Part shown: positions 8,666-31,113 of the stretch, one piece after another
Layout of the letters: the number at the start of each line of letters is the position of its first letter
Numbering within the stretch: the first letter of the stretch is position 1
Made by a program: the position numbers and the translations under genes
Assembly (NCBI RefSeq): GCF_900187365.1
Contig: NZ_FYDG01000003.1
Span: forward strand, 124,001 to 188,000
Length of the DNA: 64,000 bases
Source of the DNA: Rhodoblastus acidophilus
Lineage (GTDB): Bacteria > Pseudomonadota > Alphaproteobacteria > Rhizobiales > Beijerinckiaceae
Direction: 5' to 3'
The notes under the pieces: model-generated
Databases searched by the model: none
What the model was told of the DNA's origin: nothing
The model's input: only the letters and a program-made list of their open reading frames with translations

Positions 8666-11449
8666 ATGCTGACAATTAACGGAGCCCTCTCGCTTGAGGG
8701 CGACACGCTCAGTGCGACCAAGGGGCTGTCGGGCCAGGGCGCGGATGGAAGCGGCCCGGGAACCATAAACGTCGGTCAGGACGGCGGAATCGTCCTGAAC
8801 AAGACGGCGACCATCGCCAATCTGGTCATCAATCTCGCCGGCGACAACGCCTACCTTCAACACAACGAATCCGACGCGAACGATTACGCCGCCAATGGCG
8901 GCGCCCTGACGCTGGCGGCGAACACAACGGTGGTTTCGACCGGCGCGCAGACCTCGATCAACAGCTACGGTAATTATGACGGCGCCATCGTCAATAACGG
9001 CGCGATCGACGTCGTTTCCGGAGATTTGACGATCGCGCCCGGCATTTTCGTCAACAACGGCGCCATCGATGTCCTCGGCGGCGGGTTGTCGATCGCCTAT
9101 AATACGCAGTTCTCCAATTACGGAACGGTCGCGATCACCAACGCCCAGTGCGCGGTCGGGGCCGTGACCGGCGCGGGCGGGTTCGTGCTGAACGACAACG
9201 CCCGTCTGGTGATGACCGGCGCGGATGCGGGCGGGACCATCGCCTTCAACGCGTCCAACGCCACGCTCGAACTCGGCTATGGCGTCCAGGTCGACGCCGT
9301 CATTTCCGGCTTCGACCGCGGCGACCGGATCGTGGTCGACGGTCGGATCACCGACGCCGTCTACAATTCGGGCGACGGGACGCTCAAACTCTACAATGAC
9401 GGCGGCCTCGTCGAAACGCTGACGCTCTCCGGCGCCTCCTACACGTTCGATCTGTTCACCGTGACCTCGAACGGCTCCGGTTCGGTGATCACCGAACTGC
9501 CGAACGCCGCCACCGTGGACCAGTATCTCGCCAACAAGGCCGCTTTCGACGACCTTCGGGGCGGCTTCGTCCTTCTCGACGCCGCAACCAACATTGCGGC
9601 GCATCTGGCCCAGCTTGACAACCCGGCGATCAGCTCAATCGGGATCGTCGACAATGCCGCGCTCTCGGTGAGCGTCGCCCAGTTGGCCGATGCGACGGCG
9701 GCGCTGGCCAAGCTTCAGAACCAGGACCAGACCTCCTACAAACTCCTGGTCTCCGGCGCGGCGGCGGATGTCGCAGCCGGCCTGTCCACGCTGGCGGCCG
9801 ATCTCGATCATATCGTCTCCATCGCGCTGACGGATTCCGGCCCGGCCGTCGTGACGCTGAGCATCGCCCAGGCCGCCGACGGCGCGGCCGCGCTCGCCAA
9901 AATCACGACGCCGCACACGCTCGCCATCGCCGATGTCAGCGCCAATGTCGCAAGCTTGACGGCCGATCGGATCGCCGCTCTGGCGTCTCAGGGCGTCACG
10001 ACGATTTCCGTTACGGATCAACTCGTCGCCCTCAACAGGACCCAGAGAACCGCGTTCGGCGCCGCCCATATCGCGCTGCAGGAGCCGTATAGCGGCGGCA
10101 GCTATCAGATCGTTGACTTCAACGACGACGGTTCGGTGCACGAAATCCAGCGCTTCGGCGTCGCCAACAGAAAATGGGACGCCACCGAGACGATCTTCGG
10201 CGCCAATGGTAAGCCGGTCCAGCAGACGGCGACCGTCGGGGCGGGCCATGACGTCGTTTATATCAAGGATTACAACGCCGAGGGCGTCGCCGTCCATATG
10301 ATCCGCACCAGCCTGTCCGGCGCGGCTTCGGAGACCTGGTACAACGACGCCGGCAAGCGGACCCGACAGCTCTCCGCCAATGGCGTCGCCACCGTTTACA
10401 GCTATGACGCCAACAATGTCCTCACCGAGACCGTGCAGAGCGGCGTCACCGGACGGAAATGGGATACGCTCGACACGCGTTACGTCGCCGGCGGCAAGAC
10501 CCTGACGGCGACCCTGGGCGGCGCTCTCGTCTATCAAAGGGATTACGACGCGGCGGGGGTCTTGACCCACTCGATCACCACCGCGCTGTACGGCTCGGCT
10601 TCGGAGATCTGGTACTCCGCCGGGAGCAAGTCGGTCAGCCAGGTCGCCGAAGACGGCGCCACGACGCTGTACACCTACGACGCCAACAACGTGCTGGTCG
10701 AGGCGCGCGTCAGCGCCATCCCCGGCCAGGCCTATGACGCGACCGCCGCGATTTTCGTCAACGGCAAGGTCGTCTCGGAAACCTGGACCAAGCAAGGCGT
10801 GGTCTGGCAGACGGAAAGCTGGGACGCCAGCGGCGCCGTCGCCGACGTCCATAATTACGTGAGCGGCGCGTTTCAGGGCGTCTCCTACACGTCGGTCGAT
10901 CATCTCTACGCCGCCGGGCTGAAGACGGCGGACGTCTATCTCTCCAGCGACGGCGCGACGCTGGCGCGTCAGGACTACGCCTCGAACGGCGGTTGGACGA
11001 TTTCCGTTGGCGGCCTCGTGAAAACGAAACTGGCGAACGCCAACGGGAGTTCGGAAATCCGGACCACTGGCATCACCGGCCAGAAATATAATGAAACCGA
11101 CGTGTTCTACGACGCCAGCGGCAAGGGGGTCAGCGAGGCCTGGCTGTCGAACGGCGTGGTCACGGCGATCAAGAACTGGAACCCCGACGGAACCGTCAAC
11201 AGCGTCGAATCCGGCGCGCGGTCGAGCGTCGATCTGCTTGCCTTCGATCCGGTCTCGACGACGCTCGGCTATTCGGAAAACGCCGGGGGCGGCGGCGTGC
11301 TGACGCTGTCCCAGGGCGCCGAGTATCTGAGCTTCGCGCTGCTTGGCCAGTTCTCAGCGGCGGATTTCGCTCTGACGCCCGGCAGCGCCGGGGGCGTGAC
11401 CGTTAGCGCGCAAAACGGCCAGACGGTTTTCCTCGCCGCGCACGCCTGA
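8666..11449 (+). CDS. Large repetitive extracellular protein, probable type I secretion substrate
   Basis: The 927-residue acidic protein has no N-terminal signal peptide. Residues 20-240 are rich in N-N-G-A-I-D strands, suggesting a beta-helix (IVNNGAIDVV, FVNNGAIDVL). Residues 290-465 repeat the VSVAQLADATAALAKL / LSIAQAADGAAALAKI pattern seen in alphaproteobacterial T1SS proteins. Residues 480-860 carry YD-like repeats with recurring VANRKWDATET, VTGRKWDTLDT, IPGQAYDATAA and ITGQKYNETDV units. The end (LGYSENAGGGGVLTLSQGAE then LSFALLGQFSAADF) resembles C-terminal repeats of T1SS cargo. No ABC/MFP/TolC exporter lies in the window. Adhesin or matrix function is inferred. Confidence 0.7.
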   Translation: MLTINGALSLEGDTLSATKGLSGQGADGSGPGTINVGQDGGIVLNKTATIANLVINLAGDNAYLQHNESDANDYAANGGALTLAANTTVVSTGAQTSINSYGNYDGAIVNNGAIDVVSGDLTIAPGIFVNNGAIDVLGGGLSIAYNTQFSNYGTVAITNAQCAVGAVTGAGGFVLNDNARLVMTGADAGGTIAFNASNATLELGYGVQVDAVISGFDRGDRIVVDGRITDAVYNSGDGTLKLYNDGGLVETLTLSGASYTFDLFTVTSNGSGSVITELPNAATVDQYLANKAAFDDLRGGFVLLDAATNIAAHLAQLDNPAISSIGIVDNAALSVSVAQLADATAALAKLQNQDQTSYKLLVSGAAADVAAGLSTLAADLDHIVSIALTDSGPAVVTLSIAQAADGAAALAKITTPHTLAIADVSANVASLTADRIAALASQGVTTISVTDQLVALNRTQRTAFGAAHIALQEPYSGGSYQIVDFNDDGSVHEIQRFGVANRKWDATETIFGANGKPVQQTATVGAGHDVVYIKDYNAEGVAVHMIRTSLSGAASETWYNDAGKRTRQLSANGVATVYSYDANNVLTETVQSGVTGRKWDTLDTRYVAGGKTLTATLGGALVYQRDYDAAGVLTHSITTALYGSASEIWYSAGSKSVSQVAEDGATTLYTYDANNVLVEARVSAIPGQAYDATAAIFVNGKVVSETWTKQGVVWQTESWDASGAVADVHNYVSGAFQGVSYTSVDHLYAAGLKTADVYLSSDGATLARQDYASNGGWTISVGGLVKTKLANANGSSEIRTTGITGQKYNETDVFYDASGKGVSEAWLSNGVVTAIKNWNPDGTVNSVESGARSSVDLLAFDPVSTTLGYSENAGGGGVLTLSQGAEYLSFALLGQFSAADFALTPGSAGGVTVSAQNGQTVFLAAHA

Positions 11450-11922: not shown

Positions 11923-13665
11923 TCAGGCGCGCAGCCGCAGGCGCACGCGCAATCCCGCCGGCGACATGACGAAGCCGAAGGATTCCGCGACGTCGGCCGC
12001 CGCGCCCATGCGCTCCACATCGAAATGCTTGTAGAGCATCGCCAGAATCGTGTTCATTTCGACAAGGGCGAGCGCGCGGCCCGGACACATGCGCGGGCCC
12101 GACCCAAACGGAAGATGCGCGCCGATATCATGCGCGCCGCCGGCGTCGGCGGTTCGGGACTCCAGCCAGCGCTGCGGCCGGAACGCGCGCCCGTCGGCGA
12201 AATGTCCGTCGTCGAGCGCGGCGGGGCGAGACAGCGCCGCCACGAGGGTTCCGCTGGGGATCTCGACATCGCCGATCTGCGTGTCGACATTCGCTTCCAG
12301 CAGAATCACCGGCCCCACCGGCTTGAGCCGCATCGCTTCATTGGCCACGGCGTTGGTTGCGGTCAGCGCATTGGCCGCGTCGATGTCCTCCGGCGCGGCG
12401 GCGTCTCCGAGTTGGCTGTCGGCTTCGGCCCGGATCCGCCGCCCCCAGTCCGGATGGTCCGCCAGCAGGTGAATCGCCCAGGCGGTCGAATTGGCGGTGG
12501 TGTCCTCGCCGGCGAGCACCAGGGTGAACAGGTTCGAGAGGATGACGTCATCGGAGAAGGCGCGGCCGTTCTCATCGGTCGCCCGCGCCATGGCGTCGAG
12601 GAAACTCGCCGGCGCGCGTGCGTTTTGGCCGCCCGCCGCCCGCCGGCGCGCCGCTGCGAGCAGGCCCGACAGCCAGGAATGGACTGCCGCGACCGAGCGG
12701 TCGAAGCGACGGTCGCCCGGCGATCGCAGCAGGCGCCATGTCGGCAAAAGCGCGAAGATCCGGCGCGAAAGCGCGGGAAGAATGACGGCGAGATGCTCGT
12801 GAATCTCGCTCTCCTCACGCTCCACCGTATTGAGGTCATGGCCGAACACGACCAGCAGGGTCACATCGACGGTGAACCGCTTCAGTTCCTCCACCATGTC
12901 GAAGGACGCGCTCTCCAGCGCCAGCCGGCGCCAGCGTGTGCGCAGCCGTCGCGCGACGGTCTGGATATGCGGATAGACTTGGCGGAGATGGCGTTGCGAC
13001 AGCGCCGCCACGGTCAGTTTCCGTTGCAGCCGCCAGCTGTCGCCTTCGGCGTTGAACACGCCGCGGACGCCGATTTCGGCCAGGATGCGATCGAGACTGG
13101 CGGGCCTGCGGAACGTTTCGGGCCGGCGCCGCAGCACATGGTCGATCAGGCGGGGATCGCTGACCGCGACGGCGCGGGCGCGGCCCAGCGCAAACCGGTA
13201 AACGGAGCCGTAGCGCGCCGCCCAGCCCTCCAGAACCAAATGGATCGATTGGGGTTCGAGCTGATGAAGATTGCCCAGAAAGGGCAGCGGCCGGGGGCCG
13301 GGCAGCTCATGCAGCTTGCGCGCCGCCGGCTTCGAGCCGGCGCAGTCGCCGAGCGCCGAGACGTCGGCGAACAGGGCGCCGTCCCTTTCGACGATCGGGC
13401 AGGACGCCAGAAGCTCGGGGCCGCCGGCGCGGCGGCCGGAGGCGACGTCGAACCGCCAGCGATGGTTGCGGCATACGAGATGGCCGCCGTCAATCTCGCC
13501 TTCGCCGAGCAGCGCGCCGAGATGCGGACAGCGGCCCTCGAAGGCGCGCCACCCGTCCGGCGTGCGAAGCACGGCGAGGTCGCGGCCGTCGACGGAGAGC
13601 GCGAACGGCCCGGCGCCGACAAGCTCATTGACCGGCGCGACGCGCGCGAAAGACGCAGGTTCCAT
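11923..13665 (-). CDS. Rieske ferredoxin-cytochrome P450 fusion monooxygenase
   Basis: The 580-residue polypeptide joins two redox domains. Residues 1-105 form a Rieske [2Fe-2S] domain with Cys46-Pro-His48 and Cys65-x2-His68 (the CxH-16-CxxH pattern). Residues from about 118 onward form a complete P450. It starts with a proline-rich LPGPRPLPFLGN hinge. It has the I-helix AGEDTT near 385, the ExxR pair in NEAMRLKP near 441, and the haem loop FGSGPRMCPG with Cys527 as thiolate ligand. All cofactor ligands are present. The Rieske domain presumably passes electrons to the haem; no reductase lies nearby. Substrate is unknown. GGGAGG lies just before the ATG. Confidence 0.9.
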   Translation of the reverse strand: MEPASFARVAPVNELVGAGPFALSVDGRDLAVLRTPDGWRAFEGRCPHLGALLGEGEIDGGHLVCRNHRWRFDVASGRRAGGPELLASCPIVERDGALFADVSALGDCAGSKPAARKLHELPGPRPLPFLGNLHQLEPQSIHLVLEGWAARYGSVYRFALGRARAVAVSDPRLIDHVLRRRPETFRRPASLDRILAEIGVRGVFNAEGDSWRLQRKLTVAALSQRHLRQVYPHIQTVARRLRTRWRRLALESASFDMVEELKRFTVDVTLLVVFGHDLNTVEREESEIHEHLAVILPALSRRIFALLPTWRLLRSPGDRRFDRSVAAVHSWLSGLLAAARRRAAGGQNARAPASFLDAMARATDENGRAFSDDVILSNLFTLVLAGEDTTANSTAWAIHLLADHPDWGRRIRAEADSQLGDAAAPEDIDAANALTATNAVANEAMRLKPVGPVILLEANVDTQIGDVEIPSGTLVAALSRPAALDDGHFADGRAFRPQRWLESRTADAGGAHDIGAHLPFGSGPRMCPGRALALVEMNTILAMLYKHFDVERMGAAADVAESFGFVMSPAGLRVRLRLRA

Positions 13666-13812
13666 GGATGACCTCCCTGGCGACGACAGGCGTTATCGAA
13701 GGCGGGGCGGCAGCCATTTTCATGAAGTCCGTCGTCGTCGAACGGCGGCGTTGAAGTTTCGCGCACGCGAATCACGCTGCGCGCAAGCGCCGAGCGTCCA
13801 ATCCGGGAGATC

Positions 13813-13886
13813 TGGAGCGGGTGAAGGGAATCGAACCCTCGTATTCAGCTTGGAAGGCTGCTGCTCTACCATTGAGCTACACCCGC
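13813..13886 (-). tRNA. tRNA-Gly (anticodon UCC)
   Basis: The minus strand reads GCGGGTGTAGCTCAATGGTA at the 5' end, an anticodon loop CTTCCAA, the GGTTCGATTCC T-arm and an acceptor stem closing with CACCCGC plus an encoded TCCA end. The cloverleaf is complete at 74 bases including CCA. Confidence 0.96.
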
Positions 13887-29076: not shown

Positions 29077-31113
29077 TCAAATGCGCCGGATGGCGCGGGA
29101 AAGGGCCATCAGCGGGAAATAATGGCAGTACATGCCGTAACGCAGCATGAAGGCGCGCGACAGCTCCGGCCCCTGTTTCAGCCGCTGCGCCAGCAGGGGA
29201 TCGTCGAGCCGGATCGTCTGCCCCACGCCATAGCCGGGGAAGCCCGTGCCGGTGAAGTGCGGCTCCGGCCACGTCCCTTCGCGCTGGTTTTCCAGCAAAT
29301 ACTGGCAGCCGCGCTCGATGGACTCGCGGTCCTGCGCGCGTCCGACGGCTAGCAGCGCCATCAGCGCCCAGCCGGTTTGCGACGCGGTGGCCTCGCCGCG
29401 CCCGGCCTGATCCGCCTGCATGTAGGAGGCGCAGCTCTCGCCCCAGCCGCCATTGGCCTGCTGGCGCGAAACCAGCCAGTCGCAGGCGCGGCCGATATAC
29501 GGTTGCGTCATGTCCTCGCCGATGGCGGCGAGCGCCGGCAGCACCGCGCCGGTTCCATAGAGATAATTGACGCCCCAGCGCCCGAACCACGGGCCGTCCG
29601 CCTCCTGCTGCTCGCGGATGTAGCGCAGCGCCCGGATCATCGACGGATGCTCGCGCGAAATCCCCAGCTTGCCGAACGCCTCGACGACATGGGCGGTCAC
29701 GTCCACCGAGGGCGGGTCCAGCGCCTCGCCAAAATCGCAGAACGGGATTTTGGTGAGGATTTTCCGGGTGTTGTCCTTGTCGAACGCGCCCCAGCCGCCA
29801 CTTTGGCTCTGCATGGCGATCAGCCAGTCCACGCCGAGCTGAATCGCCTCCTCAATGCCGCGCGCCTTCCACTTTTCCTGCGTGCGGAACGGGACCAGCG
29901 CGATCAGCGCCACGGCGGTGTCGTCGGTGTCGGGATAGCAATTGTTGGCGTATTCGAACGCCCAGCCGCCCGGCTGAACCTTGGGCAGTTTTACCGACCA
30001 GTCGCCGGGAACGCGCACCTGCCGCCGCAGCAGCCAGTCCACGGCTTTGTCCGCCGCCTCGCTGTCGAGCGCCTCGGCGTCGTCGAAGGCCAGCAGCGTC
30101 AGCATCGTGTCCCAGACCGGGCTGTTGGTGGCCTGGATGAACGTAGCGTCGCCGACATCGACGCGCCAGCCGGGATCGTTGAGCGCGTCCAGCCCCTTGG
30201 CCAGCACGGGATGGGTGACGGGATAGCCCTCCGTCTTCAGCGCCATCAGGCTGTAGATCCACGGCGGCTGGATGCCGCCCCAGGCCCCGTCGGCGTCCTG
30301 GTGCTTGACGATCCATTCCAGCACATGCCGGACGGCGGCGGAGCGCAGGCCGCCGAGGCCGGTGAGATGGCCGAAATCCTGCAGCCCATGCAGAATCTTG
30401 TCGGCGCGGCGGAAGAACCGGTCCCAGAGATCCGGCTGCGGCTTGGCCGGCAGCGCATAGTCGAAGGCGTCGCGCCCCTCGGGGAACAGGGCGTCGAGCC
30501 GGTTTTGCGGCGGCAGCGGCCGCGACGGGCGCCGCGCCGACAGCACGGTGATCGGCACCAGCGTCGCGCGCGCCCATTGGGCGAAATGGTAGATGTTGAA
30601 GGGAAACCACAACGGGAACCAGATCACTTCCGGCGGCACGTTGGGGGTTTTCTCCCACGGCCATTCGCCGATCAGCGCTAGCCAGTAGCGGGTGAAGACG
30701 CGGATGTTCTTCAGGCCGCCCTTGGACTCGATCCAGGCCTGCGCATTGAGCAGGGCGGGGTGGCCCGCCGCATAGCCCGAGCAGCGCAGCGCCGCATAGG
30801 CTTCGACGGTGGTGTTGATGTCGCCATTGGGCGCGCCGTAATAGATCTCCCAGGCGCCGTCGGGCCGCTGCGTGTCGAGCAGCGACTGGGCCAGCCGGGC
30901 GCAGAGCGGATGATCGTCGAGGCCGAGGAACCACAGCGCGAGGCGCCATTGCGCCTCCATGCAGCTGTTGGATTCGGCGCGGCCGACCCAATGGCCGTCC
31001 GGCTTCTGGCGTTCGACCAGCCAATCCACCGCCGCGCGCACGCCGGAACGCAAGGCGGCGGCGAAATTATCCTGCGAGACGGGCGTATCGGCGACAGTCA
31101 AGGCTTCCCCCAT
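29077..31113 (-). CDS. shc: Squalene--hopene cyclase
   Basis: The 678-residue terpene cyclase converts squalene to hopene/hopanol at the inner-membrane face, the committing step of hopanoid synthesis. The catalytic acid motif DxDD is present as YPDTDDTAVAL near residue 396. Several QW repeats are visible, such as QRPDGAWEIYYG, DADGAWGG, QSGGWGAFD and QQANGGWGESC. No other hpn genes adjoin it, unlike the clustered hopanoid operons of many relatives. Confidence 0.95.
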   Translation of the reverse strand: MGEALTVADTPVSQDNFAAALRSGVRAAVDWLVERQKPDGHWVGRAESNSCMEAQWRLALWFLGLDDHPLCARLAQSLLDTQRPDGAWEIYYGAPNGDINTTVEAYAALRCSGYAAGHPALLNAQAWIESKGGLKNIRVFTRYWLALIGEWPWEKTPNVPPEVIWFPLWFPFNIYHFAQWARATLVPITVLSARRPSRPLPPQNRLDALFPEGRDAFDYALPAKPQPDLWDRFFRRADKILHGLQDFGHLTGLGGLRSAAVRHVLEWIVKHQDADGAWGGIQPPWIYSLMALKTEGYPVTHPVLAKGLDALNDPGWRVDVGDATFIQATNSPVWDTMLTLLAFDDAEALDSEAADKAVDWLLRRQVRVPGDWSVKLPKVQPGGWAFEYANNCYPDTDDTAVALIALVPFRTQEKWKARGIEEAIQLGVDWLIAMQSQSGGWGAFDKDNTRKILTKIPFCDFGEALDPPSVDVTAHVVEAFGKLGISREHPSMIRALRYIREQQEADGPWFGRWGVNYLYGTGAVLPALAAIGEDMTQPYIGRACDWLVSRQQANGGWGESCASYMQADQAGRGEATASQTGWALMALLAVGRAQDRESIERGCQYLLENQREGTWPEPHFTGTGFPGYGVGQTIRLDDPLLAQRLKQGPELSRAFMLRYGMYCHYFPLMALSRAIRRI

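Follow-up and report, generated by a model that had tools for sequence, protein, structure and literature searches.

A Rieske ferredoxin-cytochrome P450 fusion in Rhodoblastus acidophilus, with rare but recurrent counterparts in three bacterial phyla

Redox partners limit P450 biocatalysis. The textbook case of a Class V system is the CYP51-ferredoxin of Methylococcus capsulatus. On the Rieske side, TmoC-type ferredoxins are the dedicated electron donors of toluene monooxygenases, which are diiron oxygenases, and low-potential ferredoxins of the oxygenase type have cluster loops without the extra cysteines of the bc1 type. In the ten-class scheme of P450 redox systems, Class V is a ferredoxin-heme fusion (NADPH -> FdR -> Fdx-heme), and a Rieske donor appears in none of the classes (PMC9112060). 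Class VII (P450RhF / CYP116B) and Class VIII (CYP102) are likewise natural fusions of a P450 to its redox partner. No description of a Rieske-P450 fusion was found in the open literature searched, subscription papers being outside that scope.

Such a fusion was identified within the 64,000-nucleotide window of the Rhodoblastus acidophilus genome analyzed here. As claimed in the original prediction, a single open reading frame (11923..13665) encodes both a Rieske ferredoxin and a cytochrome P450, an assignment based on the undivided frame, Pfam domains, and full-length homologs; it spans 580 amino acids and lies on the minus strand. The frame opens with ATG at 13665-13663, 5 nt downstream of a good ribosome-binding site read directly from the sequence (AGGGAGGT, 13671..13678, minus strand), and runs unbroken to 11923; codon-position GC is even over the whole gene. 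The Rieske [2Fe-2S] domain (residues 8 to 84, 13414..13644; all features here are on the minus strand) matched PF00355 with an E value of 7e-14 and 51.9 bits against a cutoff of 20.3, and lies in a module of about residues 1 to 105 (13351-13665). Its two cluster ligand boxes, Cys46-Pro-His48 (13522..13530) and Cys65-Arg-Asn-His68 (13462..13473), were present in all 11 fusions found; the first box, and the Cys and His of the second, were invariant among five aligned fusions. A hinge of variable length and sequence among fusions (residues 106 to 120, 13306..13350) leads into the P450 domain (residues 122 to 572, 11950..13302), which matched PF00067 over profile positions 2 to 458 of 462 (E value of 1e-78; 265 bits against a cutoff of 22.8). 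The P450 patterns [AG]Gx[DE]T[TS], ExxR, and FxxGxRxCxG with its thiolate Cys were all satisfied: the I-helix oxygen-activation motif AGEDTT (residues 385 to 390, 12496..12513; A385, G386, E387, and T389 invariant in the five fusions), the K-helix EAMR (residues 443 to 446, 12328..12339; invariant), and the heme-binding loop FGSGPRMCPG with thiolate Cys527 (residues 520 to 529, 12079..12108; Cys invariant). Every ligand and motif residue named in advance (Cys46/His48, Cys65/His68, AGEDTT, ExxR, and Cys527) was thus found in its place. The fusion is the sole P450 of the 4.7-Mb genome.

Compared with the described systems, the fusion appears to resemble Class V, in that a ferredoxin and a P450 occupy one chain and the reductase is presumably separate; the Rieske cluster and its N-terminal placement would be the new elements. 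The Class V ferredoxin carries a Cys-only 3Fe-4S cluster at the C terminus, whereas the ferredoxin here is a His/Cys-ligated Rieske domain at the N terminus. Class VII and VIII P450s hold flavin and NAD(P)H domains in the same chain and are self-sufficient, but the fusion has neither, Pfam giving Rieske and p450 domains only; the missing reductase domain therefore rules out a self-sufficient P450 of either class and is consistent with the predicted need for an external reductase. CYP116B also differs in its iron-sulfur domain, which is a plant-type, all-Cys 2Fe-2S domain. Two other assignments were considered and rejected: the alpha subunit of a Rieske nonheme oxygenase, as residues 122 to 572 match p450 alone in Pfam with no mononuclear-iron domain, and a CYP170A1-like albaflavenone monooxygenase, the best NCBIfam match, which reached 172 bits against an equivalog cutoff of 700.

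Full-length fusions with no stop were encoded by two congeners, G009 (73% identity) and G006 (67%), and a fusion at 49% identity by a Myxococcales MAG (L002), with a run of N within its P450 part. Searches of a plasmid collection by tblastn added a full-length copy from Methylorubrum extorquens AM1 (36%, L037:10010-11833) and, from the Bacteroidota member Persicobacter sp. JZB09, a 28% match beginning at query residue 40 (L041:6893-8623), whose open reading frame, when read, also contained an N-terminal Rieske domain. A profile built from five fusions recovered 4 further intact copies within the family of R. acidophilus (G959, G887, G989, and G1009), plus one in G947 (L070:2316-4128) that is interrupted by an unknown base together with a change of frame, the likeliest cause being a contig gap and not a true break. 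That two separate genes were fused by an assembly or sequencing error is an explanation to which we give practically no credence: the congeneric and Myxococcales homologs align through the hinge without a stop, and the identical join recurs in independent genomes, including the complete megaplasmid sequence of strain AM1. The artifact is ruled out because full-length copies exist in these independent genomes. Neither the gene itself nor its close relatives had a stop or frameshift at the hinge, and the fusion, far from missing in those relatives, is kept in several genera and three phyla, so that both grounds on which the original prediction might have failed fell away.

The fusion is rare, yet it recurs in three bacterial phyla. 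It occurred in 3 of 11 genomes of the genus, its own included (2 of 10 congeners), and in 8 of 347 sampled genomes of the family, spread over four genera. Class and phylum scans, with scoring confined to the top three candidates of each genome, returned no fusion other than that of R. acidophilus itself in samples of 385 genomes from the Alphaproteobacteria and 398 from the Pseudomonadota, and its description as an uncommon pairing with a Rieske donor therefore holds.

Close unfused P450s were found in the class and phylum scans as well as in the plasmid search, the plasmid-borne ones (Variovorax, Caballeronia, Paraburkholderia, and Persicobacter psychrovividus) showing 32 to 41% identity. No adjacent ferredoxin gene was seen beside the unfused P450s of these four taxa, of the alphaproteobacterial genomes G423 and G802, or of others. 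In a maximum-likelihood tree of the P450 domain, fused and unfused members formed one subfamily (support of 100/100), the latter lacking the Rieske domain. Fused members fell in three places: Persicobacter; AM1 with G887; and the Myxococcales MAG with the other family members. Nested within the last of these groups (support of 98/90) was the unfused P450 of G802, best read as the loss of a Rieske domain with the P450 retained. Because fused and unfused forms are interleaved, the fusion was gained or lost several times, and the existence of unfused kin, with G802 nested among fusions, shows that some lineages can do without the Rieske domain. The P450 tree rejected a single fused clade (p-AU of 3e-58), whereas the short Rieske tree (about 127 columns) did not reject a single origin of the fused Rieske domains (p-AU of 0.41); two histories therefore stand, with either one old fusion followed by repeated losses or repeated uptake of a Rieske domain by the same P450 subfamily.

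The loss read from G802 could also be taken to mean that the Rieske domain is a nonfunctional or structural leftover of a domain shuffle. We regard this as very improbable, since the four cluster ligands were retained in 11 of 11 fusions and dN/dS of the Rieske part was 0.11 to 0.18 among the three congeners. The corresponding values for the P450 part were 0.20 to 0.28, and only the 15-residue hinge had a dN/dS that was not low, i.e., it was unconstrained. Both domains are under purifying selection and the hinge is free, a pattern that fits two working domains joined by what would be a flexible linker.

The best PDB match of the Rieske domain, and thus its nearest solved structure, was T4moC (E value of 2.7e-9), while the best bc1 chain reached an E value of 0.028. 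For each of the three fused lineages, TmoC genes from operons for toluene monooxygenases (Ideonella, Cupriavidus, Paraburkholderia, Ancylobacter, and Marinobacter) are among the nearest annotated free relatives. By best matches, then, its kin appear to be the TmoC-type donor ferredoxins, although the tree makes no decision on membership of the TmoC clade. T4moC/TmoC proteins share with it a length of about 110 amino acids and CPH...CRxH(x)W loops, and they are nearest both in the PDB and among plasmid records; however, T4moC works as a separate polypeptide to reduce a diiron hydroxylase, whereas the domain here is tethered to a heme oxygenase. Extra cysteines of the bc1 disulfide type were missing from the cluster loops of the fused Rieske domains, as expected for what would be a low-potential ferredoxin of the oxygenase type. 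For one Rieske ferredoxin, BphF, the lower potential has been put down to absent hydrogen bonds (reviewed in PMC11638306).

On these sequence comparisons, this natural ferredoxin-P450 fusion probably serves as the terminal component of a monooxygenase made of two proteins, with electrons passing from reductase to Rieske cluster to heme. A flavoprotein reductase on its own chain, using NAD(P)H, would give single electrons to the low-potential Rieske [2Fe-2S] domain at the N terminus. On its short flexible hinge, this domain would swing onto the P450 at its proximal side and reduce the heme; the reduced heme would then activate O2 and oxidize the substrate. Three parts of this scheme are inferred: electron transfer within the chain, movement of the hinge, and the identity of the reductase. 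An AF2 model of the fusion, with the window protein and pieces of the MAG as input, had a pLDDT of 42, too poor to judge cluster-heme docking. In dioxygenase systems, BphA4-type reductases reduce Rieske ferredoxins, and the R. acidophilus genome encodes one such protein (PF14759; L086:3283-4512, 409 amino acids). Its gene is unlinked to the fusion and is also present in most congeners without a fusion, and it is therefore a candidate partner only. Among the immediate neighbors of the fusion, a reductase or ferredoxin gene was found neither in the window nor in the congeners, and the remaining family loci with neighbors read had none either.

It would also be conceivable, but in our judgment unlikely, that the P450 is reduced directly by another ferredoxin in trans and that its Rieske domain serves as an appendage for regulation or redox sensing, or as a platform for docking. 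Unfused members of the same subfamily must use such a trans partner, and the fused state has changed several times on the P450 tree. However, retention of all cluster ligands and purifying selection on the Rieske domain argue against a sensor or appendage role, as does its kinship with oxygenase electron donors and not with sensors. Moreover, donor-P450 fusion is already a known design in Classes V, VI, and VII (PMC9112060).

The genes around the fusion differ among the window, G009, and G006, and therefore give no clue to the substrate. Efflux genes (MFS/HlyD) lay near the fusion in two loci only (L035 and L066). In AM1 and G887, the fusion falls within similar polyketide clusters containing a ketosynthase, an acyltransferase, and a fatty-acyl-AMP-ligase-like protein; flavin monooxygenases are also present in that of AM1, and in G887 an HMG-CoA-synthase-like gene lies about 6.5 kb past the fusion. 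We take these to be, probably, the toblerol (tob) cluster. Strain AM1 has tobACDEFGHIJKL, reported without coordinates (PMC8969499). In AM1, a DUF3047 protein is encoded directly upstream of the fusion (L037:8612-9835). In Persicobacter, the fusion follows genes for a protein of the pyridoxal-phosphate aminotransferase fold and a short-chain dehydrogenase. In G959, a gene for a DUF1989 protein (L066:2062-2928) lies on the same strand as the fusion gene and shares 14 nt with its end, and the two are therefore probably cotranslated there.

A broader proposal, which we offer tentatively and hold to be somewhat less probable than an even chance, is that this P450 subfamily, present in at least three phyla, has a TmoC-type Rieske ferredoxin as its native donor and has undergone repeated fusing and splitting; it would then constitute a Rieske redox class outside the ten-class scheme, with one branch serving polyketide tailoring. 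If the natural Rieske-P450 works, a cluster typical of nonheme oxygenase chains can drive a heme oxygenase. The interleaved fused and unfused relatives offer ready pairs for the effect of fusion on coupling, and a substrate might be approached through the polyketide-cluster copies.

Several other features near the fusion were observed. In the window, it adjoins a gene for a repetitive protein of 927 amino acids with a weak RHS repeat (8666-11449, plus strand); the same place beside the fusion in G009 is taken by a gene for a repetitive protein of 2350 amino acids with a von Willebrand D domain (L034:735-7787, minus strand), and common repeat phrases (AAHLAQLDN / VSVAQL-like) were recognized in the two by eye. 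The only tRNA gene of the window, tRNA-Gly (TCC), lies just upstream of the fusion (13813-13886, minus strand). About 15 kb from the fusion, an open reading frame on the minus strand (29077-31113) resembles, by eye, a squalene-hopene cyclase.
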